Part shown: piece after piece, positions 8,370-63,023 of the stretch
Layout of the letters: each line of letters starts with the position of its first letter
Numbering within the stretch: position 1 is the stretch's first letter
Origin: Populus alba
Lineage: Eukaryota > Streptophyta > Magnoliopsida > Malpighiales > Salicaceae
Assembly (NCBI RefSeq): GCF_005239225.2
Contig: NC_133302.1
Location: forward strand, 17,463,357 to 17,527,356
Direction of reading: 5' to 3'
Length of the DNA: 64,000 nucleotides
The notes under the pieces: generated by a model
Databases searched by the model: none
The model's input: only the letters and a program-made list of their open reading frames with translations
Told to the model about the DNA's origin: nothing
Made by a program: the position numbers and the translations under genes

Positions 8370-8660
8370 AATTGAATTTTGGAATTAATTTAATTAATTC
8401 AATCAAGGGTTTAATTGGAGAATTGATAAGTTTTGAGACTTAATTGAACTTGGAATTAATTTAATTAATTCAAGCTTGGAATTAATTTAATTAATCCAAT
8501 TAAGGGTTTAATTGGAGAATTCAAAAGTTTTGAGACTTAATTGAGCTTGGAATTAATTTAATTAATCCAATTAAAGGTTTAATTGAAGAATTGATAAAGT
8601 TTTGAGACTTAATTGGACTTAGATTAATTAAATTAATGAAATCAGAGACTTAATTGAAAC
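8370..8660. repeat. Tandem repeats of about 72 bases in the LTR left part
   Basis: Three full and two partial units contain GGAATTAATTTAATTAAT, then a GGTTTAATTG block, then TTTTGAGACTTAATTG. They start near 8376, 8476 and 8548. Family Y copy 2 has a similar degenerate TTAATTAA repeat zone at the corresponding end (35370-35640), so this is the U3 part of the LTR. Confidence 0.75.
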
Positions 8661-9541
8661 ATTATCAAAGTATAGGGTTGATTCTTGTCAAATTTGAAAG
8701 AAAATAAAACCCAAGGACCAATTTGTAAATGGCGCTGAGATGCAGGGGTTCAATTACAATTTGCCCAAGGACTGGAATGCAAAAATTCAAAATGTCAAGG
8801 ATCAAACACAAAACACCAAAAACGGTGCCGTTTCTCAGCACTGTTCATCTTCTTCAACGTCTCAGCTGCCCGCCGCCACCATTACTCCTGCAATAAAAGT
8901 CGATTGATTACCTGGTAACGGTGAAATTCTGTGGCTATAAAGCCAGAGAAAACAAAACCCAGGGGGGAGAGAAGAAAGGGCATAACCAAAAAGCCACTGG
9001 AGACCCAGAATGGCAGAGAACAAAAATTCACAGAGCCGAACAGAGAAAGACAGGGAAACCACAGAAGCGGAGAAGAAAGAAACCAAAGAAAAAACTGGGG
9101 AAACTGAGAGCAGGGGAGACCGGAACAGAAAAAGGAGAGGGGACTGAAAAACAAAAAAAAAAAACAGGGGAAAGAGCACTGGAAACGGGAACACAACAGA
9201 GCAGAGAACGGAAAGGAAACAGACCCAGAACAAGAGGAGCAGAGCGAGAACCAGCAAGAAAAAAAAAAAAACCAAAACGATTCACGGGGAAGAGGAGAAA
9301 AAACGACGAAAAAACTCAGGGGAAGACAGGGGCAGTTTGAAGCAAAAGAAAGGGAAGGCAAAATTCCTTCACAACTTCGGCAGCCGCAAACAACAAACGA
9401 AAACCGGGGGAGCACAGGAGATCGATCAAAAACCAGGAACATTCGCAAAATAACAAGAACGAAGAAGGGCGAAGGAGAAAGGCGCTCAGCAAACCAGGTC
9501 AGTAACCTTTTCTTCTTGCATTATTTTGGTTGATTAGTATT

Positions 9542-9659
9542 TGCACTGTGCAAGTGAATTTTAATTCACTTGCACAGTGCAGCAACACACGTGCGTTAGC
9601 GCACGCGTGTTGCTCAGCCCAGCCAGGTCACTGGCTTGGGCCAGTGACCGGCTGGGCTG
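9542..9659. other. Three consecutive hairpins in the family Y LTR
   Basis: Hairpin 1 (9542-9581) has 19-base perfect arms, TGCACTGTGCAAGTGAATT, and a 2-base loop. Hairpin 2 (9582-9613) has 14-base arms with one mismatch around TTAG. Hairpin 3 (9615-9659) has arms of about 20 bases, CAGCCCAGCCAGGTCACTGG, closing on TTGG. The same three structures occur in family Y copy 2 with different stem sequences. If transcribed, this would fold strongly. Confidence 0.85.
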
Positions 9660-10359
9660 GTCGGGTCTAGCCCAACCCATGTGGGCTGAGCTGGGCCCAG
9701 CCCATAAAATTTAAAAAATAAAAACAAAAAAATAAAAATAAAATAAAAATAAAAATGTTATGCATGAATAAAAATAATGTAAATTTATTGGTTGATTTAC
9801 TGACGCCAGAATTAGGAATAAAAATACCGGTTTTAAATTTATATTATTTTTATCCGTTGTATTTTATTTTTATTTTAGCTAGAAAGATAAAAAAAAATAT
9901 GTGCATGCGTAAAAATAAATTTATTTTTTATTTATTCATTCATTGACACTAGAATAGGGAATAAAAAAATATTAATTTAAATTTTTTTCATAGCTACGAA
10001 TTTTTACCAATGCCAGAGTTAGAATTATTCGAGCTTGAATATTCACTGGCGCCAGAGTCAAGATTATTATAAAAAAATCATCATAGCATAAACTAATAAA
10101 TATTTAGCAATTTAAAACAAGACCAACAATGCAGTCTGCCTTAGGCAGAACGTTTAAAGGGTGATAATATCTTTCCTTTTACGTAACAAATCCCGAGCTA
10201 TAGAATCTCTGTTAACTAGTTAGGGTTTCTAGTGACTATAATACTAAGTGGCGACTCCTCAAACAAGATATTTTTTCCTAAGAGAATCAGATACCAGAAA
10301 TCTATTCTTTTTTATAATTTAGAATTATTTTGTGGGCCGCCGCAATGCCGGATGCGACA

Positions 10360-10776
10360 GAATGCATGTGATGGGATGGCATGCACTCCAAGTTCAGGGA
10401 ATATGCTTGCAGTAAGCAAACTCATCTTTAGGTCAGTGTTTTTTTTTTTTTGTTTTTTAGTTCTAATAAAATTATGTTTAGGTATAAGATAGTGTCTTGA
10501 CAGCACAGACATTGGAATGGAAGATTGCAAACAGAGCTAGTTGTAATGAAGATTATTGCGATGTGTTTCTATACAAAACGGGAAAAGAAGAAATATTGAC
10601 GATCCAGTTCTTTGAACAAAAGTAGACAAAGAAAGATGGTGCAAAGATTGAATGGAGTGTCTAATATCTGCCATTGGAGAGGAGAAGAGGACCTAGCTTT
10701 TCTTAGCTTTGTCCTGTTATTTTTGTTTAACCTACACAGCGAGTATACATAATGGCTAAATGAGCTAATCTACAAC
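10360..10776. other. Unassigned DNA between LTR and assembly gap
   Basis: There are short open stretches, but I recognise no protein. The segment ends at the run of N, so any gene here would be incomplete. A poly-T run lies at 10440-10451. Confidence 0.4.
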
Positions 10777-33792: not shown

Positions 33793-35755
33793 TGTCGCAC
33801 CCGACATCGCGACGGCCTTAAAAATTTTTAAATCTTTGGGAAAGAACAGATTTATGGCATCTTGTTCTTTAATGGGGAATGATCTTGTTTAAGGAGTCGC
33901 CACCTAGTATTACGGTGACTAGGAATCCTAACTGGTTAACAGAGATTCTATGGTTCGGGGCTGATTACGTAAAAGGAAAGATATTATCACCCCTTAAACG
34001 TCCTGCCTGAGGCAGGCTGCATTGCTAGTTTCGTCTTCAATTGCTAAATGTTTATTAGTTTACATTATGAAAATTTGCTTATAATATTCCTGACTCTGGC
34101 GGCAGTGAATATTCAACTACGGATAATTCCAACTCTAGCGTTGGTAAATATTACGTAGCTATAAAAAATAAATTTAAATCAGTATTATTATTTTTTATTC
34201 CCGACTCTAGCGCCAGTGAATAAATAAATAATAATACATTTATTTTTTGAATGCACATATTTTCTTATTTTTTTCTAGCTAAATAAAATTGAATAAACGA
34301 ATAAAAATAATATAAATTTAAACCGGTATTTTTATTCCTGACTTTGGCGTCAGTGAATAAACTAATAAATTTACATTATTTTTTATTTTCGCATACACAT
34401 TCTTTATTTTTTTTTTATTTTTCTGTATTTTTTTATTTTTTTATTATTTTTTTGTTGGGGCCGGGCCGGGCTGGACCTAGCCCAACATACGTTTTTGGGC
34501 TGGGCCTAGCTCAGCCCCTATGGGCTAGGCTAAGCCCAGCCAGCCCGGCCTGGCCACTGGCCCAAGCCAGTGGCCCGGCTGGGCTCAGCAGAGCGCACGC
34601 GTGAAGTGAATTCACGCGTGCCTTGAACTATGCGAAGGTAATTAAATTACCTTTGCATAGTGTTCTTGCTACACAAATGCCAATTGAATGAAGAACAAAA
34701 CAAAAAAAAAATGGAGGGGAATGGCGTACCTGCTTCTGGAGTGGCGAAGATGGCTGCAACGCTGGTGGCGACTTTCGCCTGCTTGATCACTTTTCCTTTG
34801 CTTTTCCCTTTTGCTCCTGTGCCCGCAGTCTACTTTCGTTTTCCAACAGATTTTGAGATAGTGAAGGAACTGAGAATGAAGATGCCAGCTTTCGTGGATA
34901 CTAATTTTTTTTGTTTTCTGCAGGAATGAAAGCAAGAGCAGAACCGATTCCCCTCTCTGTGTATTTTGTTTCTGGGTTTATGCTTTGTTTTTGGTCTGCT
35001 TTTTTCTGTTCTTATGCCCTATGTTTTTGGGTTAATTACTCTCTTAACTCTATTTTTCTTGTTCTTAACTCTGCTTTTTCTGGGTTTCTCTCCCCCCTCT
35101 GTGTATTTTTTTAGCTCTCGATCTCCTCCTCTGTGTTGTTCATCTCAGCCTTTTAACAGGCAAGAGCTTCCACAACTGTTACCCCCCCATAAACAGGATC
35201 GTGGTCCACGATTTGCTGCAAATTTCCTGTTGAATCGGCTGCCTCCACGCGAAAATGAAGGGATGATGAACATAAGGATTCTAAAACGGCGTCGTTTGGC
35301 TTGGGAAATGGCAGATTATAGATTGGTCCTTGATGTTTTGAAATGTATCAATTGGGTCCCTTAATCAATAAATTTTAATTTTGCCCCTTGGATTAATTTC
35401 AATTAAATCCCTGAATTTATTTAATTAATCAAATCAAAGTTTAATTAAGTCCACAAACTTATTAATTCTTCTAATTTTCCCCCCTTTTGAATTAATTTCA
35501 ATTAAGTCCTTGAATTTATTTAATTAATTTAATCAAAGTTTAATTAAGTCCACAAACTTATTAATTCTTCTTGATTTCATTAATTAAAATAATTTAAATT
35601 TTAAGTAAATTTTCCAAACTTATTAATTCTTCAATTTCTGACCAATTTATTCTCAAATCTGATAATTTTATCCCTAAACTTCAAAATTTGTTGTCTTAAC
35701 CCCATTGTCAACTATATTTAATTTTTATTATTTGTTCAAAAATTGGGTTATGACA
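33793..35755 (-). mobile_element. Solo LTR, family Y (Tat-like), copy 2
   Basis: A 1963-bp LTR on the minus strand, TGTCATAACCC to GGGTGCGACA, with perfect 5-bp duplications ACAAC at 33788-33792 and 35756-35760 inside the triplet array of the family X LTR. It carries the U5 block TGGCGACTCC (33893-33904), the U5 stem-loop CCTGCC-TGA-GGCAGG (34002-34016) and the triple hairpin region (34500-34665). Open frames inside it are composition artefacts. No internal region remains, so it arose by LTR-LTR recombination. Confidence 0.92.
34500..34665. other. Triple hairpin region of family Y copy 2
   Basis: On the minus strand, in order: ACTATGCAAAGGTAATT with its partner AATTACCTTCGCATAGT; GCACGCGTGAA-TTCAC-TTCACGCGTGC; and GCCCAGCCGGGCCACTGGC closing on TTGG with GCCAGTGGCCAGGCCGGGC. 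Positions correspond to 9542-9659 in copy 1. Stem sequences differ while pairing is kept. Confidence 0.82.
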
Positions 35756-37033
35756 ACAACAATAATGATGATGGTGGTGGTAATGATGACTTAAAGAGGA
35801 CTTTGAGATATAAGATAAATGTAAAGATTACACAATGATAAAAATAAATGTCAAGGTTAGAGGATCCACTAATAGTATTAGAGATAAGTAATGTATAAAC
35901 TCTTTATAAATTATCAACATGATTATATTAATCATCTTATTTACATAACACCATACTTATAAATTTTATCAGGTATTCATGATGCTAACTTATATGTTGA
36001 CAACAAATCAAGTTCCTCTTATAGCAACGATGTCGGCCGAAGACTATGAAAGAACAAGTATTTGATGTACCAAGTTTTATACAGCACAAATCTAGATTAA
36101 CCATTTAACAAGCAAGATATTAAGAATTAATAAGATAAAAATGATAAGACATGTTAATAGCAAGTTGTTTAGGATATAAGTATTAAAGTCCATATTGAGT
36201 TTATATTACTCTTATCCTAACAACATTAATGAAACCTTTTCACCTTGACATAATTAACTTAGCTAGGCATTATGAAGAAGAAAAACATAAATAAACAATA
36301 TAAGAACATAAACATGATATAAGTTAACTAAGTATAGTAAATGAAATGAAAAGCATGAACAAGAGATTAATGAAAGCAAAACTTAAGCATTACAAAAATA
36401 TAATGAGAAAGAGCAAGAACATGATCTTGATCTGAAAAACAAGATCCCTAAATGAATGGTAAATGCCTTCTTTTATAGGCTAAAATTCAGAACTATTCAT
36501 TTGGTAATTGATTATTGATATAGTGGACTTGGTGGACAACAACACTCAAGCATTTTGGCTAGATGAAATGACATTGATGCAATCAGAATTTGGCAAAGTG
36601 TTCTTCATAAAAGTTATTGGAAATTCTCTTTTCCTTCCACCCATAAAATTTCATGTCATTTGGCCTTCTAGAACTCCAGATATGGGTAAACTTCTAAGCA
36701 GTGTTTGGGCTGGATTGCAAGACAAATTCTGACTTCTCTTTTGTGGCCAAACTTTGAATGTGAGAACGGCAAATTTGGGTCTTTCCCTGTTCATGAAAGT
36801 TGTAGGCCTATTTCTTATCTTTCCAGCCATATAAACCAAACTGAAATCCAAGATCTATAGCTCCAGATATGACCCAAAGACTGAACAATGTTTGAATTTG
36901 AATTGAATCAGCATCTCCTTCCTAAGCTTAGCCTTTTCTTTGTCCTTTCACTTCCAATAGTTAATCACAACAATCAATCATTTGAATTGTGAGATATACC
37001 ATAAAAATACATTTTTTAGTACTAATCAGTTGG

Positions 37034-45417: not shown

Positions 45418-47055
45418 GGACACAACCAAAAGATTGATGTCTTCTTCCAAGTGCAGGAGTGTCGAAGTAATAAATAAATCGGCAAGACCGGGGTCAAATC
45501 ACAGGGAGGTTAACTATATAAATTATAAATAACAACAACACAACAACAACAATAACAACAATAACAATAACAACAACAACAACAACAACAACAATAATAG
45601 TAATAATAGTAGTAGTAGTAGTAGTAGTGGTTATGATATTAATAATAGTAATAGTAATAATAAAGAGGACTTTGAGATGTAAGATTAATGTGAGGATTAA
45701 ACAATAATAAAAACAAATGTCAAGGTTAGAGGATCCACTAATAGTACTTCAAATAAGTATAGTATAAACTCTTATTACTCAACTGGAAACAACACACAAA
45801 GGAGGTTCCAATCAAATTATAATTGTTAACATGATTACATTAATTATCTTATTCGAGTAATGCCAATTATACTTGTAAATATTATCAGGTATTCATGGTG
45901 ATAACTTATGTTAACAACAAATCAAGTTCCTTTCATAGCACATGTGTAGGTTATACCATACGGTTGGGCTATGAAAGTGCCAAGCATTTGTTGTACCAAG
46001 GGTTGTTCAACACAAATCTAGATTAACCATTTAAAAAGCAAGGTATTAGGAGTGAGCAAGATAAGAAATATAAAAAATGTTAGTATCAAGCATTAAAATC
46101 CATGTTGAGTTTATACTATACTTATTCTTACACCATTAGTGTAACCTTTTCACCTTGACATAATAGATTTAGCTAAACATAATGAAAGAAAAAAACATAA
46201 ATAAACAAGATAAGAACATAATTATATAAATAAGGGAAAGGAAATGAAAAACATAAACAAGAGTTTAATATAACATAAAATAAAACTTAAACATTACCAA
46301 ATACAAAGAAAGAGAGCAAGAGCATGATCTTGATCTGAACACCAAGATGCCTAAATGCATGGCAAATGCCTTCTTTTATAGGCAAAAATTTGGAACTATT
46401 GATTTGATGACTAATTGTTGAGTAGGTAGCCAACTCTTGACTTGGTGAAAATCCTTATCTTCTTGTCTGAATAAAACGTCATTGCTAACATCAGAACTGG
46501 AACCACCTGTACTCATGAAAGTTCTAGGAAATTGTCTTACCTTTCCAGGAAAAAAAATTAAGGTCATTTGGACTTCTAGAACTCAAAATATGGGCTGAAC
46601 ACTGAACAGTATCTGGGCTGCAAGACAAATTTGGATTTCTCCGTTGTTGCTATAATTTGGACTTGAAAATGGCTTTTTAAATCTTGGACTCCAAATGAAA
46701 TTTGTAGGCCTATGTCTTACCAAATCTGTCCAAAAAATTAAGGTTATTTAGACATCTAGAAGTCGAGATATGACCCAATTACCGAACAGTGTTCAAGTTT
46801 GGACTGCACCAACATTTCTTTTCTAAGTTTGGCCCTCTCTTTGTCCTTTCAATTTCAATACTTAAACTCATCAATCAATCCTTTCATTTATGTGATAGGC
46901 CTGCATTTAAGATGAACATTTACAATAAATTAAAGGTATCTTATATTATTACGTATGTTATTATAAAACATGCTTTAGTTAAGGAGTTATTGATACTTCA
47001 AGTGCAAAATGATGATACAAAACTTTGATAAAAATGCACTTTTAAATACTAATCA
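45418..47055 (-). mobile_element. Solo LTR, family X
   Basis: 1638 bases from GGACACAACC (consensus TGACAC, first base changed) to ATACTAATCA, with perfect 5-bp target duplications ACTAC at 45413-45417 and 47056-47060. The flanking gag leader reads straight through as GGCTCACTACCAAAAAGAG, exactly as in the uninterrupted relic near 14718. No internal sequence remains, so the element was reduced by LTR recombination. Confidence 0.92.
45529..45665. repeat. Triplet microsatellite (AAC/AAT/AGT) in the family X LTR
   Basis: About 135 bases of AACAAC, AATAAC, AATAGT and AGTAGT triplets. The same place in the other two family X LTRs (33770-33792 with 35756-35785, and 58590-58670) also holds triplet repeats of different length, so the array is part of the LTR and varies between copies. 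Confidence 0.9.
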
Positions 47056-47591: not shown

Positions 47592-47657
47592 TCCATAATT
47601 CAGTCGGTAATTACCGACGGTTATATAACCGTCGGTAATTACCAACTGAATTATAGA
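47592..47657. repeat. 66-bp near-perfect palindrome in the CACTA subterminal region
   Basis: 33-base arms centred at 47624/47625, differing at two positions, both G-to-A type changes in the right arm. The central part, ATTACCGACGGTTAT with ATAACCGTCGGTAAT, is perfect. It contains four TACCGAC sites in inverted pairs. Confidence 0.88.
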
Positions 47658-51424: not shown

Positions 51425-52449
51425 CCCAAGTTCGCGGGGCTGATTCGAAGGATTTTTTTTGGACCAAGGACTGAATCGAAAAGTTTTAAAATGAGGGATT
51501 GAATTGAAGAAGGATATTGAAAGCTGGAGAGGGAGGATGGATCATCATAAATGATAGGATTTTTTCCACACCAATAAGGAAAATGAGACCTTGCAGCTGC
51601 ACCATCCAGCTGATTTTCTTTCCTTTTTCGCTGCAAATTCTTGTTGTTTTTCCTTTATCATCATGTCTGATTTTGGGAGCTGCAACCATGTTTTTTCTGG
51701 CCTCATTTCAAAGGGAGCAGCTGGCCCTATGGAAGGAAAGAAAACAACCACACCCTCCTTTAAAACTAGAAAGAAATCAGACGTAAAGAACCAGCATAAA
51801 GTCAGAATATTGCAGCTTCCTTTTGCATTTTTGTTACTGCAAATCAGTAGGGATTTACGTCCTAGGATTAATGCATTGAATCCTTCTTAAATGGAGACAT
51901 TTTAGACTATATATAAGCCCCTCTAATGACCTAACGGGGGCAGCAAAAGGGGAGCCAAAAAGAGAGCCGAAAGAGAGCAAAAAAATAGCAGAAAGAGAGC
52001 AGAAAAATAAAGGAAAAAAAATGCAAGAGAGGCAGAGTAAAAAAAACACAGAATAGAGGGAATTTTCTTGCTTGCATTCTGGTGTCACCGTGAGAGAAAA
52101 AGAGACAGAGTCACCGTGAGAGAAGAAGAGACAAGACGGAGAGGGGGTTTTGTTTTAAACTTTGACAGCAACATGTATTTGTTGTTTTATTCCAGTTGTT
52201 GCAGCAAACCTTTTCAGCAAGACCTGCAGGTAAGTCTAAATTTTCTCCTCCTTTGCTGCCTTTAAGTCTTTTGTATCTGTTTTGTTTTTTCTTGTTTTGC
52301 ACATTCGTTGCCACATTTTAGACTGTATAATACCCGTTTGCTTTTGTGTTGTTCCTGCCGTGATTTTGAGCTGTAGATAGGTGATTGTTTAAGCTTTGGG
52401 CTAGCCTTTGGTGTTTCTTTTTTATCTCCTGTCCTTCACTGTATTCAAA

Positions 52450-53010
52450 GTTAAGGAACCAGGGAAGGGGGTTGTTGTTTTCTTCATCAACAACTCCTTT
52501 TTCTATTTGTGTTCTTTCCATTTTTATTGAAATAGCCGGCCAGATCTTGCTTTGTTTTCATAGTCTATGTTATATATGTGTTATAAAAGCATGTCGTCCC
52601 AAGCCTTTTCTCTTTTTTTATGAAAGTAGCATGACAGAATTAAGGAACCGGGGAAGGGGGCTGTTGTTTTCTTCATCAGCAGCTCCTTTTTTCTTTTTGT
52701 GTTCCTTCCATTTTTATTGAAATAGTCGGCCAAGTTTTGCTTTGTTTTCATAGTCTATGTTATATATGTGTTATAAAAGCATGCCGTCCGAAGTCTTTTC
52801 TCTCTTTTTTTTGTACGAAACTAGCATGACAGAATTAAGGAACTGGGGAAGGGGTTTGTTTGTTTTCTTCATCAGCAGCTCCCTTTTCTATTCATGTCCT
52901 TCCATTTTATTGAAATAGCCGGCCAGGTTCTTGCTTCTAGTCTATGATATATATGTGTTATAAAAGCATGCCGTCCCAAGTTTTTTTTGTTGTATGAAAC
53001 TAGCATAGTA
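52450..53010. repeat. Three tandem units of about 190 bp in the Ogre LTR
   Basis: Units start near 52450, 52638 and 52835 with TTAAGGAACYRGGGAAGGGG and contain CATTTTTATTGAAATAGYCG, TTATATATGTGTTATAAAAG and CATGCCGTCC. The repeated CATGNCGTCC(A/G)AAG and TTATAAAAG motifs may include promoter elements, so each unit could add a start site. Confidence 0.85.
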
Positions 53011-54152
53011 ATTTACTTTTTTTCTTGGATTGTTAAAAAGAAATAGGTCATTAAGTCATGGTTATATGCAATAGGAGTTCGATGTAAAAATTTCAGTTTC
53101 AAAACTTTGGCTCCCCCATCCATACGTGTTTAGTCCTTTCCAATGTACATAATTTTAAGTTGATTTGGCTTTGAATGATTTTTTGTTACGAATTATTTCA
53201 AGTTTCTTGTCGTTCTTGTAATATGAATGATGGTTTGCTACTCCCCATTTTGGTGTTTACGTTTAATTGTGATGCTATGTTTTTCGATGAAAAATTTAAA
53301 AAGTTTTCTTGTGTGTTGCATACGGCCAATACCCTAACATGTTTTGAATTCCTTTTTATATATGTATAAAAAAAATATTGGAAGTTTCGAAAAAGATATT
53401 TTCGTATGGATTTCGTAAACACAACAAAAAAAAATTATTTTCTTGCATTTTTGGATTTTACAACATGTTTGTAAAACTCCAAAGGGTATTGGCCAATATT
53501 TCAAAAAATATAAAAATCCTATTATGGGGGGGAATTAATCTATTATTCACCGCTAATGTTTGGATAAAGAAATCCTTAAAGGACGAATATCCAAAATATT
53601 ATTGGGAGTAATAAATCCGCACACATTCGTGAAAGAAGCCTTTATTATAATCGAAAACATTTCAAATTTTTTTTACTCCACGGTTTACGAGCCGTGATAG
53701 TATAAAGTATAAAAAATATAGGTTTTGTTGTAGCGCCCTAGATTTCTATTTTTTTTTGTCCCATTTCCTTGCGATTTACGAGTCGCAAACTCTTGAAATA
53801 ATAAAGAGAAAAATGAGCTTTCAAAGCACATGGAATCTCCTTGGATTTCTATCCAAATAAATTTTATTTGAATCAAACCTAGAAAAATTGATGGGATTAG
53901 AAAACACCAACACCATAGCAATTATAGAGCAAACCAAACACCAAGCAGCTTACCTTAGGTAGGGCGTACTAGGGGTGCTAATACCTTCCCTTTACGCAAC
54001 CAGTCCCTTACTTTAGAATCTCTGAAAGACCAGTTAGGTTTCCTAGTGACCAAAATACTAGGTGGCGACTCCTTTTTTTTAAACAAATAAAACCTGAAAT
54101 ACAATCGATTGGTCGATGCGACGTCGCGTTCCGTCGCGAGGGTGCGACAGGA

Positions 54153-54170
54153 TGGCGACTCCACTGGGGA
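54153..54170 (+). promoter_or_regulatory. Primer-binding site (tRNA-Arg type)
   Basis: TGGCGACTCCACTGGGGA, three bases after the LTR end. The first ten bases are complementary to the CCA end and acceptor stem (GGAGTCG) typical of plant tRNA-Arg. It primes minus-strand synthesis in reverse transcription. Confidence 0.82.
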
Positions 54171-54679
54171 TTTAGGACTAAGCTTGATAATTTGTTTGTT
54201 TATGCTATGTGTTATTGGTTTTTGTTTTCTTATATGAATGATACTTTGTTTAAAAGCTTTAGTATGCATCTTTACATTCTATCATACATGGTACAGTCAT
54301 GCATCACTTTATTATTATCATTATGTTTTTTAGGGCACACACATGTAACTTTAAGTTAAGTGGGGAACTAGCAGCTTGCCTTATGACTTGAGTCAAGGTT
54401 TAAGTTTGTGTAAACCCCAACTCTTTGCTAAGTGTTTAGATTGATTGTGATTGGTACACGTGCTATCCCACTATCTGCTAGACCCCCATATCGCCTTTAC
54501 GAGGGTGATCACTGGAACAACAAGAGACCCTCTTTTTTTAGAGACCAAGTAGTAAACCTACCCTATGTCTCACGTAAAGGAACTAGAACCTATCCTTAGG
54601 GTGTATGCTCCATAATATCTTTTGCATCAAAACAAGTCTAACCCCAAATGCATTTTGAATTGCAGGACTTGTGAACGAA
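54171..54679 (+). other. Leader between primer site and ORF1
   Basis: About 500 bases, nearly the same as 31640-32192 on the opposite strand. It contains a possible splice acceptor, TTGCAG, at 54659-54664, just before the ORF1 ATG at 54680. Ogre-type elements are known to use splicing, but I can only see the motif. Confidence 0.6.
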
Positions 54680-56059
54680 ATGGCCATCATCACTAAATCT
54701 TCCATCATAGAGTATGGGAAAAATTCTGAACTGTCACAATTGACTGAAGGAGACTGCCTTAGAAGCGATGTTAAGAAGATGTCACCAATCAAGAACCTGA
54801 ATTGCATTATGAATGAGGTGAACAAGTTAACGACTCATTTTCAGAATGTAGATAAAGATGCATTTTTTAGGAAATACGGACGTTCGGTGGAAATTGCAAG
54901 GGTAGAAGTTTTAAGCCCAGCTGTGCGAGCTTTAGTTCATTTTTGGGATCCAGACTACCGATGTTTTTCTTTTGGAAGCATAGACCTATGTCCCACGGTT
55001 GAGGAATATGGATTGTTGACCGAGTTTCCAAACAACCTGTATCGGATTTATTTGTCTTTGAGATCTGACAAGATCATCCCCGAACTGTCAAAACTGCTCA
55101 GAATCTCCAACTTGGAAAAGTTTTTGGAAAAGAATGGTACTGGTTTGAAATGGAGGATGCTAGAAATTGAATTAGAAAAGAAGTCAGGATTAGAAAAAGA
55201 GAGATTGATTGCTTTGGGTATATTTGGCCTTGTGTTGTTCCCAAGCCAAACTGGTTTAGTGAGTTTGGAGGCCGCTGCTGCTTATGTAGAGTATGAGAAT
55301 ACACAAATCAATCCAGTGGCTGCTATTTTAGCTGAAATGATTTTGACACTTAACCATTGTAGGAGGACCGGAAAAGGAGCAATGAGATGTTGCACGCAAT
55401 TGTTGTATATTTGGATGGTTAGCCATATCGAAACAAAAAAGCCTGTCTTCAATAATTTTTGGTGGTTCACCCAAAGACCCCTGAAGTTAGTAGAAGAAGA
55501 AGAATGGGGAGATCTAGACAACCAAGGTTGGGTTGACAAATTAGAAGGTTTGCCTAATAGTGATTTTGAGTGGAGAGCCCCATGGGTAACGACAGTGAAG
55601 GTCCTAATGAGTTGTGGACAAAGACGTTGGGTACCATTAGTAGGGATTACAAGTTATGTGAGTTATGCTCCTGCCTTAGTGGTAAGGCAACTTGGGGGCA
55701 TCCATTTTGTTCCCAGGACTATGGGAATTGCTCAATTCTTTGGTTTGTTCAAAGATCCCATTGCAAAAGAGGTTTTGGAGATCATTAAACAAGATTGAAA
55801 GCATCTGGTTTTGGTTGAGATAAAAGGTTTAAAAGATCCAAGTGCAAGCGAAGGATATGCAAAATGGAGAGACTTAGCTGCTTCAGCCATGCTTTGTGTA
55901 GGAGCCAAATCTCATCAAGCTGTAGAAGAGCCTATTAAGAGAAAAAGGGTTAACAATGAAGATGAGTTGAGAAGGCAAGTGGAAAAACTTCGAATAGAGT
56001 TGAGCAAAAGCAGAAAAGACAAGGCAATGTTGGAAGAAATGAATGCTAGAAGAGGATAA
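54680..56059 (+). pseudogene. Ogre ORF1 protein (plant-mobile-domain-like), one in-frame stop
   Basis: The first ATG (AIITKSSIIEYGKNSE) begins a protein of about 460 residues. The globular part shows EVLSPAVRALVHFWDPDYRC, FSFGSIDLCPTVEEYGLL and, further on, LVSLEAAAAYVEYE and VPLVGITSYVSYAPALVVRQ. These resemble the plant mobile domain and the ORF1 of Ogre elements, whose role is unknown. A TGA at 55796-55798 replaces the TGG preserved in relic B (IKQDWKLL). The same frame then continues through GLKDPSASEGYAKW and a charged coiled coil (RRQVEKLRIELSKSRKDK) to the TAA at 56059. The product would be complete except for this nonsense change. Confidence 0.82.
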
Positions 56060-57380
56060 AAAGGAGAGGCATTTCTAGATGAGCAAATACAGTCTAGAGA
56101 TGCGAAAAATAATAAAAGCTTGAGTTAAAGCTAGGTGAGGAGAAGATTGCTAGGAAAGAAAGTGAGAAGGAGCTAGTCGGAAATGAGTTTGGAATTGGAT
56201 GCAAAGTTGCTCTGAACTTGAAAGCAATGGAGATGGACTTTAACGATTGCCAAGGAAGTTCAGAATATTACCAAGAAAAATTTACACAAGTGCAGTTTCG
56301 AACTAATGGATAGGATTGGGAAGTATGAGGATTTGAATAAGAAATATATGGAGTTGGAAAAGCCGTTCTACGGGGATTGTAAAAGAAGAAAGTAAAAGGA
56401 GAGGTTTCGAGGATGTTGAAGTAGAGTTAGCGGTTAAGAAGAATGAGATAAAAGTTATGAGGATAAAACTTGACAAAGAACGTGAAAAGGTGAAGTATTT
56501 AGACAAGAAGCTAGTAACAATGGAAAAACACAAGATCAAATCGACGCCAACAACATGATTTGAAACAGAACCAACATGTTGCTCATAGAAAAAAATGACC
56601 AAGATAGATGAGCAAATGGATGAAGCTGCTACACATGCTCGAATTATTAGAATCAATGCGCGGAACATGGGAGGAGACATCATTCGCTATCGCCGAAGCC
56701 TAGCTGAAACCGATGCCTTTCTAGGGAAGATTTAGAACCGCGGCTTTGCCTTCTTACCTTTGTTAAAGAGTTTATGGAGAAAGATTAACATGTTGTATTT
56801 CTTTTATTTCTAAATGTAATGAATTTATCAAGCATTAATGAAAAGGGCGTTGACCCATCTTCTTATGCAAAATCCGTCTCTTGGTGAACATGATTCAAGC
56901 AAACGACTCGAAAGGCAGAACTCCTATCAAAGCAATGTGACAAAAGAAACTATGTTTATAATGTGGTGGCTATTATTCGTTCACAAGAAGGGCTGCATCC
57001 ATACCTAATGAACAAAGCATTCTTATAACTATCATGCATTTTTCTCATACATCTATGCACGCATCTGCAGATTAGAAACATAGGTCCCCCTTCTAAAATC
57101 CACAACACTGCGACAAAGAAAAAGAATGGAAAACGAAGAAAAGGTCACAACCGGAAAGCTCAATACCAAAAGAAGCTTGAAGGAGTTCGGAATGATGTGG
57201 CGCACCTAACCAGTATGTTAAAGAAAATTTTGAGAGCCAGAGATGGAGAGGGAACGTCTACTCAACCTAATGAAGCACCAGCAGCTGCTCAAATTCCTGT
57301 CGCACCTATAAACATGGGGAAAAAATACACCAAATAAGCAGCATCCTAATCCACTCGGGCCCATCCAAATCCCTGTTACA
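56060..57380 (+). other. Decayed coiled-coil region and gag leader
   Basis: Lysine- and glutamate-rich patches continue the ORF1 coiled coil with stops and shifts to about 56740. About 57080-57380 holds the gag N-terminus in shifted frames (QYQKKLEGVRNDVAHLTSML-like text). The same leader is seen near 14700 and 45370. No other gene is seen. Confidence 0.6.
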
Positions 57381-58181
57381 ATGGATTTAACAAACGAGGA
57401 TCCACATGACATCAAATTCTCTAATCATGAAGGGTATGATAAGTGGACTGCACTAGAAGAAAGGCTAAGGGCAATTGAAGGAAATGATTTATTTGATCCA
57501 ATTAGGGCCGCTGAAGTATGTTTGGTGCCTAACATCGTAATTCCAAAGAAGTTCAAAGTGCCGGAGTTTATTAAGTATACCGGAATGGAATGTCCAAAGA
57601 CCCATCTTCGTTCCTACTATAACAAGATGGCAGAAGTTATCCACGATGATAAATTGTTAATTTACTTCTTCCAGGATAGCCTAATAGGATCGGCCCTCAG
57701 CTGGTATATGAGGTTGGACAATGCTAGGATAAGGAAATGGACGGACATGGAAGATGCTTTCTTAAAGCAATACAAGTTCAATCTTGAGATTGCTCCTGAT
57801 AGGACAAGTTCGATTGCCATGGAAAAAGGAAATCAAGAGTCGGTGAGGGCTTATGCTCAAAGGTGGCGAGACCAAGCTATCAATGTACAACCTCCACTAA
57901 TAGAGACGGAGATGGTGACATTGTTTGCCAATACTTTTAGGGCCCCATATTACGAACACCTATGGGTAGCTCAGCCCAGCATTTCTATGATGCTGTGCCG
58001 ATTGCTGAAAAGGATTGAGCAAGGAATTCCGAAGTGGGAGAATTGCAGAACCTATAGAGAAGAAGGGTTTTTTTGGAAGAAAAAGGAAATTGAGGTGAAT
58101 AACTTAGAAGGCAGGGTACAAGGGAAAGAAAAAAAACTACCAAAACTACCAAACACCTACCTCCCAAATCACCAGCATTAA
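57381..58181 (+). CDS. Gag polyprotein of the Ogre-type element (partial)
   Basis: 266 residues from ATG at 57381. It contains a conserved block ending RAAEVCLVPNIVIPKKFKVP, then EFIKYTGMECPKTHLRSYY, the gag core FFQDSLIGSALSWYMRLDN, APDRTSSIAMEKGNQESV, YAQRWRDQA, and ANTFRAPYYEHL. This is the retrotransposon gag family that forms the virus-like particle. The N-terminal part (57120-57380) is out of frame upstream, and the C-terminal nucleocapsid and protease parts are lost in frameshifts after 58181 and in the LTR insertion at 58342. It is the best preserved of three gag copies in the window. It is probably not functional. Confidence 0.83.
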   Translation: MDLTNEDPHDIKFSNHEGYDKWTALEERLRAIEGNDLFDPIRAAEVCLVPNIVIPKKFKVPEFIKYTGMECPKTHLRSYYNKMAEVIHDDKLLIYFFQDSLIGSALSWYMRLDNARIRKWTDMEDAFLKQYKFNLEIAPDRTSSIAMEKGNQESVRAYAQRWRDQAINVQPPLIETEMVTLFANTFRAPYYEHLWVAQPSISMMLCRLLKRIEQGIPKWENCRTYREEGFFWKKKEIEVNNLEGRVQGKEKKLPKLPNTYLPNHQH

Positions 58182-58485: not shown

Positions 58486-60342
58486 TGACACGACCAAAAG
58501 CTTGATGTCTTCTCCAAGTGCAGGAGGTCGAAGTAATAAATAACCCGGCAAGACCGGGGTCGAAACCACAGAGAGGTTAATTGTATAAATTATAAATAAC
58601 AACGCAACAATAACAATAATAACGATAATAATAACAATAGTACTATAGTAATAGTAATAGTAATAATAATACTCAGTACTGCGTTGTTATACCTGAGAAT
58701 GATCTAAAAGATCGGGTCACAGGTTCAGCCTATATAACTGAGTTTATGAACAGATAATAATATAATAATAAATAATAATAATAATAACAATAATAAAGAA
58801 GGAGAAGGAAGAATATTTAATGAGAACTTTGGAGCTTGGAAAGAATTAATGTAAGTATTAAAACAACGATAAAAAATATAAATGTCATTTAGAGGACTCC
58901 ACTAATGGTACTTCAAAACAAGCTATACAATAAAATACTTGCTTATATCACTCAAATGAAACCACATACATAAAGGATGGTTCAATCCAGATTATAAAAT
59001 TGGTTAAACAATGGATTGCATTAGATTGATCCTTTATTCAAAATAAAGCTAGATACTTGGTAAATGTTGGCAGGCATTTCATGATTATCAGGACTTTATG
59101 TTTCACACAAACACTAATCAAAGTTCCTGTTCATAGCTCAAGGATGATCGGATATCACCACTACAGGTATGGGCTAATGGAAAAGTAACCGCAAGTATAT
59201 TTGTGTGTACCCAAAGTGTTTTATATCAACATATAATCTAGATTACACGCATTTAATCAACAAAATAATTTAAATAAGTTGAACGCAACGAATAAATCAA
59301 TATTATAGAAACCATGTTTAGTAATCCAATCGTTAAAAGGTCGCATTGTTTAAGGTTTATCATAATAGAACTTATTTTATGTACACGGCCAATTAGTGTA
59401 TCCCTTTCACCTTGAACAGTACATTAAGCTTAGCTTAAAATGCATAATGCAAACTAAAGAGAAACATAACCATGAACTAAGATAATGAACATCAAAATGA
59501 GAGAAAGAAGTTAACTAAGTAAAGAAAAGGAAATTTAATGTGCATAATACTTAATATTAATGAAAAGCAAAACATATAGCAATAACAAAGAGATAAATAG
59601 CAAGAGAGTATATGATCTTGATCCTGAAAACCCAAGATGCCTTAATACATGGTAAGTGCCTCCTTTATAAGGCCAAAATTTGGAAACTATTGATTTGTTA
59701 ATTTAATTTGATGAGTGGGTGGCCACATCTTGACTTGGTGACAATCCTTATCTTCTTGTCTGAACAAGACGTCATTGTAACATTCATAATTTGCCCAGAA
59801 TCCTCAGGAATGTTCTAGGAAATTGTCTCAGCTTTCCAACAAAAAAAAGATGAGTATTTGGACTTCTAAGAACTCAAGATATGGGTTGAAACTAAATAGT
59901 GGTCTGGGCTGCAGGACAGCTTCGGACTTCTTCGTTGTTCCTTCAGTTTGGACTTCAAAACGGCCTTTTTAAATCTTGGGCTTCCATGAAGTTGTAGGCC
60001 TTTGTCCTTACTTTCCATCCATATAAAATGGACCTAAATTCGAGATCTAGAGCTCCAGAATATGATCAATTACCGAGCAATGTTCCGGTTTGGACTGCAC
60101 CGGCATCTCTTTTCTAAGTTGGCCATCTCTTTGTCTTTCACTTTCAATACTTAAATCATCAATCAAATCCTTTTATTTATGTGATAGGCCTGCATTAAAT
60201 GAGCATTTACCATAAATTTAAGGTATCTTATAGTATCCAAACTTGTTATTATATAAACATGCTTTAGTAGGAGTTATTGATACTTCAAGTGCAAAATGAT
60301 GATATAAAACCTGATAAACATGCACTTTTTAAGTACTAATCA
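58486..60342 (-). mobile_element. 3' LTR of an Athila-like Ty3/gypsy element (family X)
   Basis: 1857 bases, on the minus strand TGATTAGTACTTAAAAAGTG to GGTCGTGTCA. It matches the solo LTRs at 33669 and 45418. It is preceded on the minus strand by GGTTGGGGGTG (60343-60353), which would be the polypurine tract. Left flank GAACC (58481-58485) is the expected target duplication, its partner being outside the window. A triplet repeat zone lies at 58590-58800. Confidence 0.85.
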
Positions 60343-62475: not shown

Positions 62476-63023
62476 CTATGGGTCGGGGATAGGCTTCCCA
62501 TCCAGTTTTCTTAAAAACTGGCAAACAGGGTCTTTTTTAGTCAAATTCCCAAGACTAAGTCGATCATGTTCTTTATGGAATTGTGGCCATAAATCATGAA
62601 TTACACGATGCACATCTCCACTAGGATGCGTCTCAAGGGTCAATAAAAGATTATCTAAAGACCCCTTACTCAGGCCATCCTTAATGAATTGTATTTTATC
62701 TTCACGGTTTACAGATACCATTCCTAAAGAACGACATGTCGCATTACAAGTCCATCTAGCACATCTGTGACAGACTTTCAGTCGTTTTGCACGACGTTTC
62801 TTTGCAAAAGCGCTTTTACCTGTTCCAGGCATGTGTGAAATGAAAGAATTGGAGGACTCACCTGATAATCGGACCTTTGCTTCAATTAGCCAGCGAATAT
62901 CTTCAGGAATTCCATGATTCATTAACAACCGTAATCTTTCACACCTAGCACGGTAAATTTTTGTAAACGCATTCTGAGGCAGAGCGGGAAAATACTTTTC
63001 AACTTTTCAAGAGTGGTGTCCAT
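62476..63023 (-). pseudogene. Small retrotransposon protein with a CX2CX4CX3C cluster
   Basis: The ATG at 63023 starts MDTTLEKLK. After a one-base shift within the first 15 codons the frame reads YFPALPQNAFTKIYRARCER, NHGIPEDIRWLIEAKVRLSG, SAFAKKRRAKRLKVCHRCAR, WTCNATCRSLG, and ends KLDGKPIPDP. About 180 residues, basic in the middle, with cysteines spaced C-x2-C-x4-C-x3-C. This resembles a zinc knuckle but is not the CX2CX4HX4C of gag. It lies directly downstream of integrase, where Athila elements carry an env-like ORF, yet it has no signal peptide or membrane segment. I do not recognise the family. A role in RNA binding or silencing suppression would be a guess. Confidence 0.6.

Follow-up and report, generated by a model that had tools for sequence, protein, structure and literature searches.

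How do two copies of one long terminal repeat (LTR) come to fold into the same series of hairpins from different letters? The question is raised by a 64,000-nt stretch of Populus alba DNA (contig NC_133302.1, positions 17,463,357 to 17,527,356 of the forward strand; hereafter the window), in which two LTR copies of a retrotransposon family that we call family Y each carry four hairpins in series (H1 to H4) in identical order. An initial annotation, made from the letters of the window, had reported three hairpins per copy in the same order; the order stands, and each copy has a fourth. The feature is real and widespread: in family Y and in a second family, family Z, the shape and place of the hairpins are kept and their letters are not. 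Its function can only be proposed. Tentatively, and at somewhat less than even confidence, we read the array as a cis-acting RNA structure in LTRs that would be confined to unspliced genomic RNA and would act in packaging or dimerisation or in restraining splicing.

The two copies and their hairpins are located in the window as follows.

8370..10359, forward strand: copy 1, family Y LTR; start approximate, 5' end apparently truncated, 3' end ...TGCGACA, without a following primer-binding site
9542..9581, forward strand: hairpin H1 of copy 1, type a (fold and inverted-repeat scan)
9582..9613, forward strand: hairpin H2 of copy 1, of the ACACGTG/CACGCGTG type (fold)
9615..9659, forward strand: hairpin H3 of copy 1, TTGG loop (fold)
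9660..9701, forward strand: hairpin H4 of copy 1, absent from the initial annotation (fold)
33793..35755, reverse strand: copy 2, family Y solo LTR, TGTC...GACA, with GTTGT on both flanks
34627..34661, reverse strand: hairpin H1 of copy 2, type b (fold and inverted-repeat scan)
34595..34621, reverse strand: hairpin H2 of copy 2 (fold and inverted-repeat scan)
34542..34585, reverse strand: hairpin H3 of copy 2, TTGG loop (fold and inverted-repeat scan)
34498..34541, reverse strand: hairpin H4 of copy 2 (inverted-repeat scan)

For copy 1, similarity to copy 2 stops at 10360 and similarity to another LTR begins near 8379. Copy 2 is inserted in a repeat that is uninterrupted at 45419-47055 and 58487-60342 of the window; its GTTGT target repeat is weak taken alone, since it lies within a GTT run. 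The stem sequences and the TTGG loop first described for the two copies are present as written. When folded as RNA, 9542-9715 (copy 1) has a z-score of -13.4 and 34450-34668 (copy 2) one of -10.9, with none of 200 dinucleotide shuffles equally good in either case. The whole window holds 11 inverted repeats with a score of at least 20, five of which lie inside the two arrays, while three Markov-simulated windows yielded 2, 0 and 0, both of the two being A+T-rich. No inverted repeat of the window is stronger than the one at 47595-47654, whose 60 nt are almost perfectly paired; it lies about 1.6 kb before a Transposase_21 open reading frame (ORF) and is perhaps the terminal region of a DNA transposon.

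Further copies of family Y were retrieved from the same genome using the part of the LTR downstream of the array as query, so that they were picked blind to hairpins. Taking the best 40 of 1854 candidates for copy 1 and the best 40 of 1742 for copy 2 gave a sample of 80 LTR copies, comprising 78 retrieved places and the two window copies; these are not all separate insertions, because ten LTR pairs of single elements (by position) are included. Searches with hairpin-bearing queries were left out of the counts, and further listed copies were not taken as arrays. Of the 80 copies, 71 have an inverted repeat with a score of at least 18 within the 420 bp on the upstream side of the anchor and 2 have one within the 420 bp on its downstream side, a contrast that is gone when the threshold is lowered to 13 (78 versus 76 of 80). 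By RNA folding, 72/80 arrays had a z-score below -4 (median -9.1), as did 3/80 control stretches (median -1.4). Up to six hairpins were seen per copy, in an order that, judged by eye, is constant.

Within this fixed layout the letters change in blocks. H1 exists in two common types, H1a and H1b, whose exact 20-21-nt cores are found at 120 and 224 places across the genome; a reversed control pattern of these cores has no genome match. The initial annotation had taken the stem-1 difference between the window copies as a set of changes made jointly in both arms. The pairing it described is there (copy 2 has one A.C mismatch), but in the larger sample the difference is one between two recurring hairpin types rather than a string of paired changes. 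H2 has many forms (for example GATGCACGCGTGA..TCACGCGTGCATC, GCAAGCGTGCGTGAA..TTCACGCACGCTTGC and GGCACGTGTGAT..ATCACACGTGCC). The expectation that the fold is kept while letters change is thus borne out within family Y, and hairpins are mainly exchanged as units rather than compensated pair by pair.

Pair-by-pair covariation is correspondingly weak and is not the strong evidence here. The T:A to C:G change in stem 3, which had been singled out as compensatory, is real: among 48 copies of H3 the pair is TA in 29, CG in 13 and something else in six, and under a tree-based null it ranks first of the 903 column pairs in H3 (p 0.0019). This corresponds to E 1.7 over all 903 column pairs, or 0.04 when multiplied by the 21 stem pairs. 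Over all column pairs, no stem pair reaches E<0.05 in H3, H2, H1a or H1b; as first stated, the covariation claim is not supported by this test. Since two column pairs outside the stem of H1b do pass (E 0.000 and 0.020), the null is imperfectly calibrated. In these tests L061, L016, L072 and L024, loose-anchor matches without a regular hairpin, were dropped for H2, and L029, L045 and L057, with a broken right side, were kept for H3. A swap test for H2, which kept the four dropped copies and ignores the relatedness of copies, compared arms of 33 distinct forms with their own and with swapped partners: the outer arms paired at 3.03 versus 2.13 of 7 positions (0/5000), the core at 7.21 versus 7.10 of 8 (127/5000) and the inner pair at 0.76 versus 0.52 (3/5000). 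Departures from Watson-Crick pairing are more often G.U than A.C, both in H4 (106 versus 49 cells, 8 versus 5 pairs, with a conserved C.A pair excluded from the cells) and, less markedly, in H3 (17 versus 12 cells); as the cells are not independent, this excess is no proof of action at the RNA level. Pairwise covariation, weak under the tree-based null, was therefore dropped as the main proof. In short, the structural claim of the initial annotation is right and its covariation claim is weakly supported.

A second LTR family was reached through a conserved acceptor-like motif before gag, described below, for which ten loci were read. Three of these (L104, L106 and L109) belong to a new family with hairpins, family Z, and L107 to family Y; no hairpins were found in L100-L103, L105 and L108 in the stretch examined, which may not extend to the array. 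A search with the L104 sequence that lies downstream of its array gave 1872 candidates, of which the best 40 were taken and 39 other places retrieved, a sample that includes about nine LTR pairs (by position). An inverted repeat with a score of at least 18 was present upstream in 38/42 rows and downstream in 0/42; because L106 and L116 are one place, the upstream count amounts to 37/41 places. The fold z-score was below -4 in 36/42 rows. The hairpins of family Z are unlike those of family Y and unlike one another, including a 46-nt hairpin centred on AATTATAATT, TGCAACGTGAATT..AATTCACGTTGCA, CTGCATGCAG..CTGCATGCAG, TGCAGAACGTGAAC..GTTCACGTTCTGCA and others. In four hand-picked AATT-centred hairpins the left arm is fully complementary to the right arm of the same hairpin, and pairs at 0/12 to 7/12 positions with those of the others. 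The retention of fold without letters therefore extends to a second family at the corresponding place in the LTR.

Pairs of LTRs from single elements indicate when the arms are matched. Across the paired positions of ten such pairs in family Y we counted 8 changes that made a mismatch, 7 that made G.U, 6 that turned G.U into a Watson-Crick pair and 2 of other kinds; not one compensated change had followed insertion, and three of the LTR pairs were free of substitutions. That arms decay after insertion, uncompensated, implies that matched arms arise or are kept during replication of the element and not by chromosomal repair.

The position of the arrays within their elements bears on what they might do, and involves four further features.

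8932..8945, forward strand: TATA-like box TATAAA of copy 1 in a small palindrome, TGGCTATAAAGCCA (TATA at 8936, word match only)
9494..9503, forward strand: splice-donor-like CCAG/GTCAGT of copy 1, GT at 9498 (predicted)
34724..34732, reverse strand: splice-donor-like CAG/GTACGC of copy 2, GT at 34729-34728 (predicted)
54140..54169, forward strand: third related element of the window, without strong hairpins; LTR end GGGTGCGACA, then TGGCGACTCCACTGGGG, which resembles a primer-binding site

In the window copies the TATA-like box precedes the array by 500-600 nt, about 600 nt in copy 1 and about 500 nt in copy 2. The TGGCTATAAAGCCA palindrome of copy 1 recurs in L002 and the C5 element, and L007 has TGGCTATAAAAGCCA; L001 is copy 1 itself. 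In the five places where both features were assigned (copies 1 and 2, L002, L007 and C5) the TATA-like word is followed by the donor-like site at a distance of 424-646 nt, and a donor-like GT stands at most 125 nt before the array in 60/65 family Y copies, as judged with a scoring matrix that gives rough absolute scores. At the other end, an acceptor-like site precedes gag in 10/10 elements. Its sequence, YAG followed by GTTGAAATATAGGT (for example in L049, L090-L098 and L100-L109), is conserved between related families that share about 70-75% identity in their gag DNA, and one form of the stretch has 200 places in the genome within one mismatch. Between the two sites, full elements of the family carry the primer-binding-site-like TGGCGACTCC 3 nt after the LTR, the exact word being found in 8/10 elements searched. 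The third related element of the window has no hairpin above a score of 12 in 51801-54160.

The host elements of the array are probably of the Ty3/gypsy type and of the Tat clade. The gag of one full family element matches PF03732 Retrotrans_gag; because no pol-like ORF was found in the pieces read of this element, it may be non-autonomous. This gag shares 53% identity over 243 aa with a gag of the window (57312-58178) that lies near an ORF related to DUF7745 and the plant mobile domain, and the two elements have the same layout of LTR end and primer-binding-site-like word, a possible likeness to Retand and other Tat-clade elements. The ORF in question, at 54659-55798 on the forward strand, matches DUF7745, with the plant mobile domain below cut-off, and stands upstream of the gag ORF and after an acceptor-like ATTGCAG. 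A difference from Retand is that the main text of a survey (PMC11963269) does not contain the terms 'hairpin', 'secondary structure' or 'inverted repeat'.

From the structure, its place, its conservation in two families and the splice-like motifs, we infer a model for transcription start, splicing and function. Transcription would start near the TATA-like box, and some transcripts would be spliced from the donor in the LTR to the acceptor-like site ahead of gag, so that Gag would be translated behind a short leader. Such splicing would remove the hairpins along with the remainder of the LTR and the primer-binding site, and only unspliced genomic RNA would keep them; there the hairpins might mark or compact the molecule for dimerisation or packaging, or keep splicing in check. 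Selection would then act on being a strong hairpin and not on letters, so that hairpins could come, go or be exchanged for others; new ones might plausibly arise by fold-back copying while the element is reverse transcribed. A more specific version is possible, if on the unlikely side: that the leader intron begins inside the LTR and holds both the hairpins and the primer-binding site, that only unspliced RNA is marked in the manner of a packaging signal, and that turnover is so fast that families share only shape and place.

Several results weigh against this proposal. A donor-like GT precedes the array in only 4/26 family Z copies, and the common type of that family has a poor donor. Copies of a spliced junction were sought as CCAG joined to GTTGAAATATAGGT; the 26 exact matches included none, among the 10 examined, in which exon-1 sequence adjoins the site. 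As for the reading in the initial annotation, the arms lose complementarity freely after insertion, an outcome that the annotation had itself named as refuting, and 8/80 family Y copies do not reach a fold z-score of -4. Finally, a hairpin-less subfamily (L082, L086 and C3:21782871-21783483), whose copies are about 98-99% identical, has a fold z-score of +0.3 in the two copies folded, L082 and L086. It represents at least two insertions, since the C6 copy and one C3 copy are each flanked by a separate 5-bp target repeat (ATGTT and ATTAT); the two C3 copies have common flanks. As this subfamily has moved, the array is dispensable for movement.

The means by which plant LTR retrotransposons separate genomic from messenger RNA are not well understood, and mapped signals for packaging or dimerisation are few in plants. 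An array that is kept in shape and place, not in letters, beside predicted splice sites is a concrete candidate for such a signal. Sequence-based surveys will miss signals of this kind, and covariation by pairs can fail when whole hairpins swap. In retroviruses, packaging stem-loops stand behind the major splice donor. Most arrays of family Y, though few of family Z, would resemble these in forming a series closely downstream of a donor-like site in the predicted leader and in being predicted for unspliced RNA only. They differ in being part of the LTR, ahead of the primer-binding site, and in that Gag would come from spliced RNA. By eye rather than by systematic search, we saw no self-complementary 6-mer for a kissing loop shared by the loops of H1, H2 (variable) and H3 (TTGG).

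Among plant elements, BARE1 splits translated and packaged RNA pools via splicing and Ogre splices its transcripts, according to portions of PMC3735527, which cites the latter. Those introns lie within or between coding regions, whereas the intron predicted here would start inside the LTR, end directly ahead of gag and enclose both the hairpins and the primer-binding site. The closest structural likeness is to Sireviruses (Ty1/copia), whose LTRs hold clusters of palindromes with letters that differ between families and a dyad that is retained, as set out in excerpts of PMC2829016 and in Bousios et al. 2016 as cited in PMC10760457. According to PMC2829016, these palindromes precede the TATA box, with some near env as well, and are repeats of a single short motif that in all but one case share a CGG-CCG core. 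In copy 1 the present hairpins run from 9542, downstream of the TATA-like box at 8936 (a word match only); H1 to H4 are long, unlike each other and in series in a predicted transcribed leader, the listed H1 and H2 forms have no CGG-CCG core, and the gag of one element matches Retrotrans_gag. A maize survey (PMC10760457) reports no evident peak of structure in Ty3 elements, and searches of open-licence papers, read as listings, turned up no account of such a hairpin array in Ty3/gypsy leaders.

Of the other explanations, the one that fares best is that the arrays are DNA-level regulatory dyads, clustered sites for dimeric transcription factors, with the RNA fold as a by-product; we consider this unlikely, though less so than what follows. 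H3-H5 are dense in TGGGC[CT]/[AG]GCCCA words, which we take to resemble plant site II motifs, and many H2 cores are CACGCGTG, palindromic in itself. The Sirevirus clusters, too, have been interpreted as cis-regulatory in the portions of PMC2829016 and PMC10760457 at hand. However, those motifs lie upstream of the TATA box and the arrays some 500 to 600 nt downstream; the loop of H2 varies in length, complementarity extends along the arms beyond the core words, and the words differ between families.

Mutational bias, by which fold-back template switching in reverse transcription would make and perfect palindromes without selection on the fold, is distinctly less probable. It could account for L118, in which one hairpin is doubled in tandem, and for L143, whose hairpin resembles an inside-out version of that in L104, which is what a doubling that moves a palindrome out of phase would produce; arm matching that is older than insertion also fits. 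So do imperfect or non-palindromic H1 regions that occur beside perfect ones. Against it, H4 retains a C.A mismatch in 46/57 copies, plus T.G pairs at several positions, which perpetual repair of palindromes should have erased, the neighbouring LTR stretch is almost empty of strong inverted repeats (the 2/80 above), and hairpins stand at a corresponding place in two families. The suggestion of template-switch repair in the initial annotation thus fails as the whole story and may survive as a source of new hairpins under the proposed RNA-structure reading.

It is improbable that the arrays trigger host silencing, acting as a source of small RNAs and being kept as decoys or incidentally. At 10-20 bp in most cases, the stems are short for substrates of Dicer-like enzymes, and in 9400-9800 no Rfam family, microRNA or other, reaches its gathering score (the best is SymR, at 29.3 bits versus 61), nor does any match at that score cover either array in the whole window. 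The enrichment of small RNAs over palindrome-cluster regions of maize Sireviruses, reported in part of PMC10760457, is in its favour. Least probable is shared ancestry alone, with fixed blocks copied and recombined among related LTRs and no present function: the inner stems are nearly invariant within H1a and within H1b, the H1 types are common to both downstream LTR clades, which suggests recombination, and the hairpin-less subfamily has moved, but several unlike hairpin sequences occupy one place in two families.

Three observations concern other parts of the window or other collections. A search of a plasmid collection with the LTR gave no match. An ORF at 62476-63006 on the reverse strand matches the plant-virus nucleic-acid-binding families Viral_NABP and Carla_C4, here in a plant chromosome. 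The Rfam microRNA family MIR2912, which is known from Populus and is named 12 times by a paper on Populus small RNAs (PMC6431645), has three forward-strand matches, at 36667-36827, 46575-46730 and 59865-60019. All sit in three copies of one dispersed repeat, and MIR2912 therefore looks derived from a transposable element.
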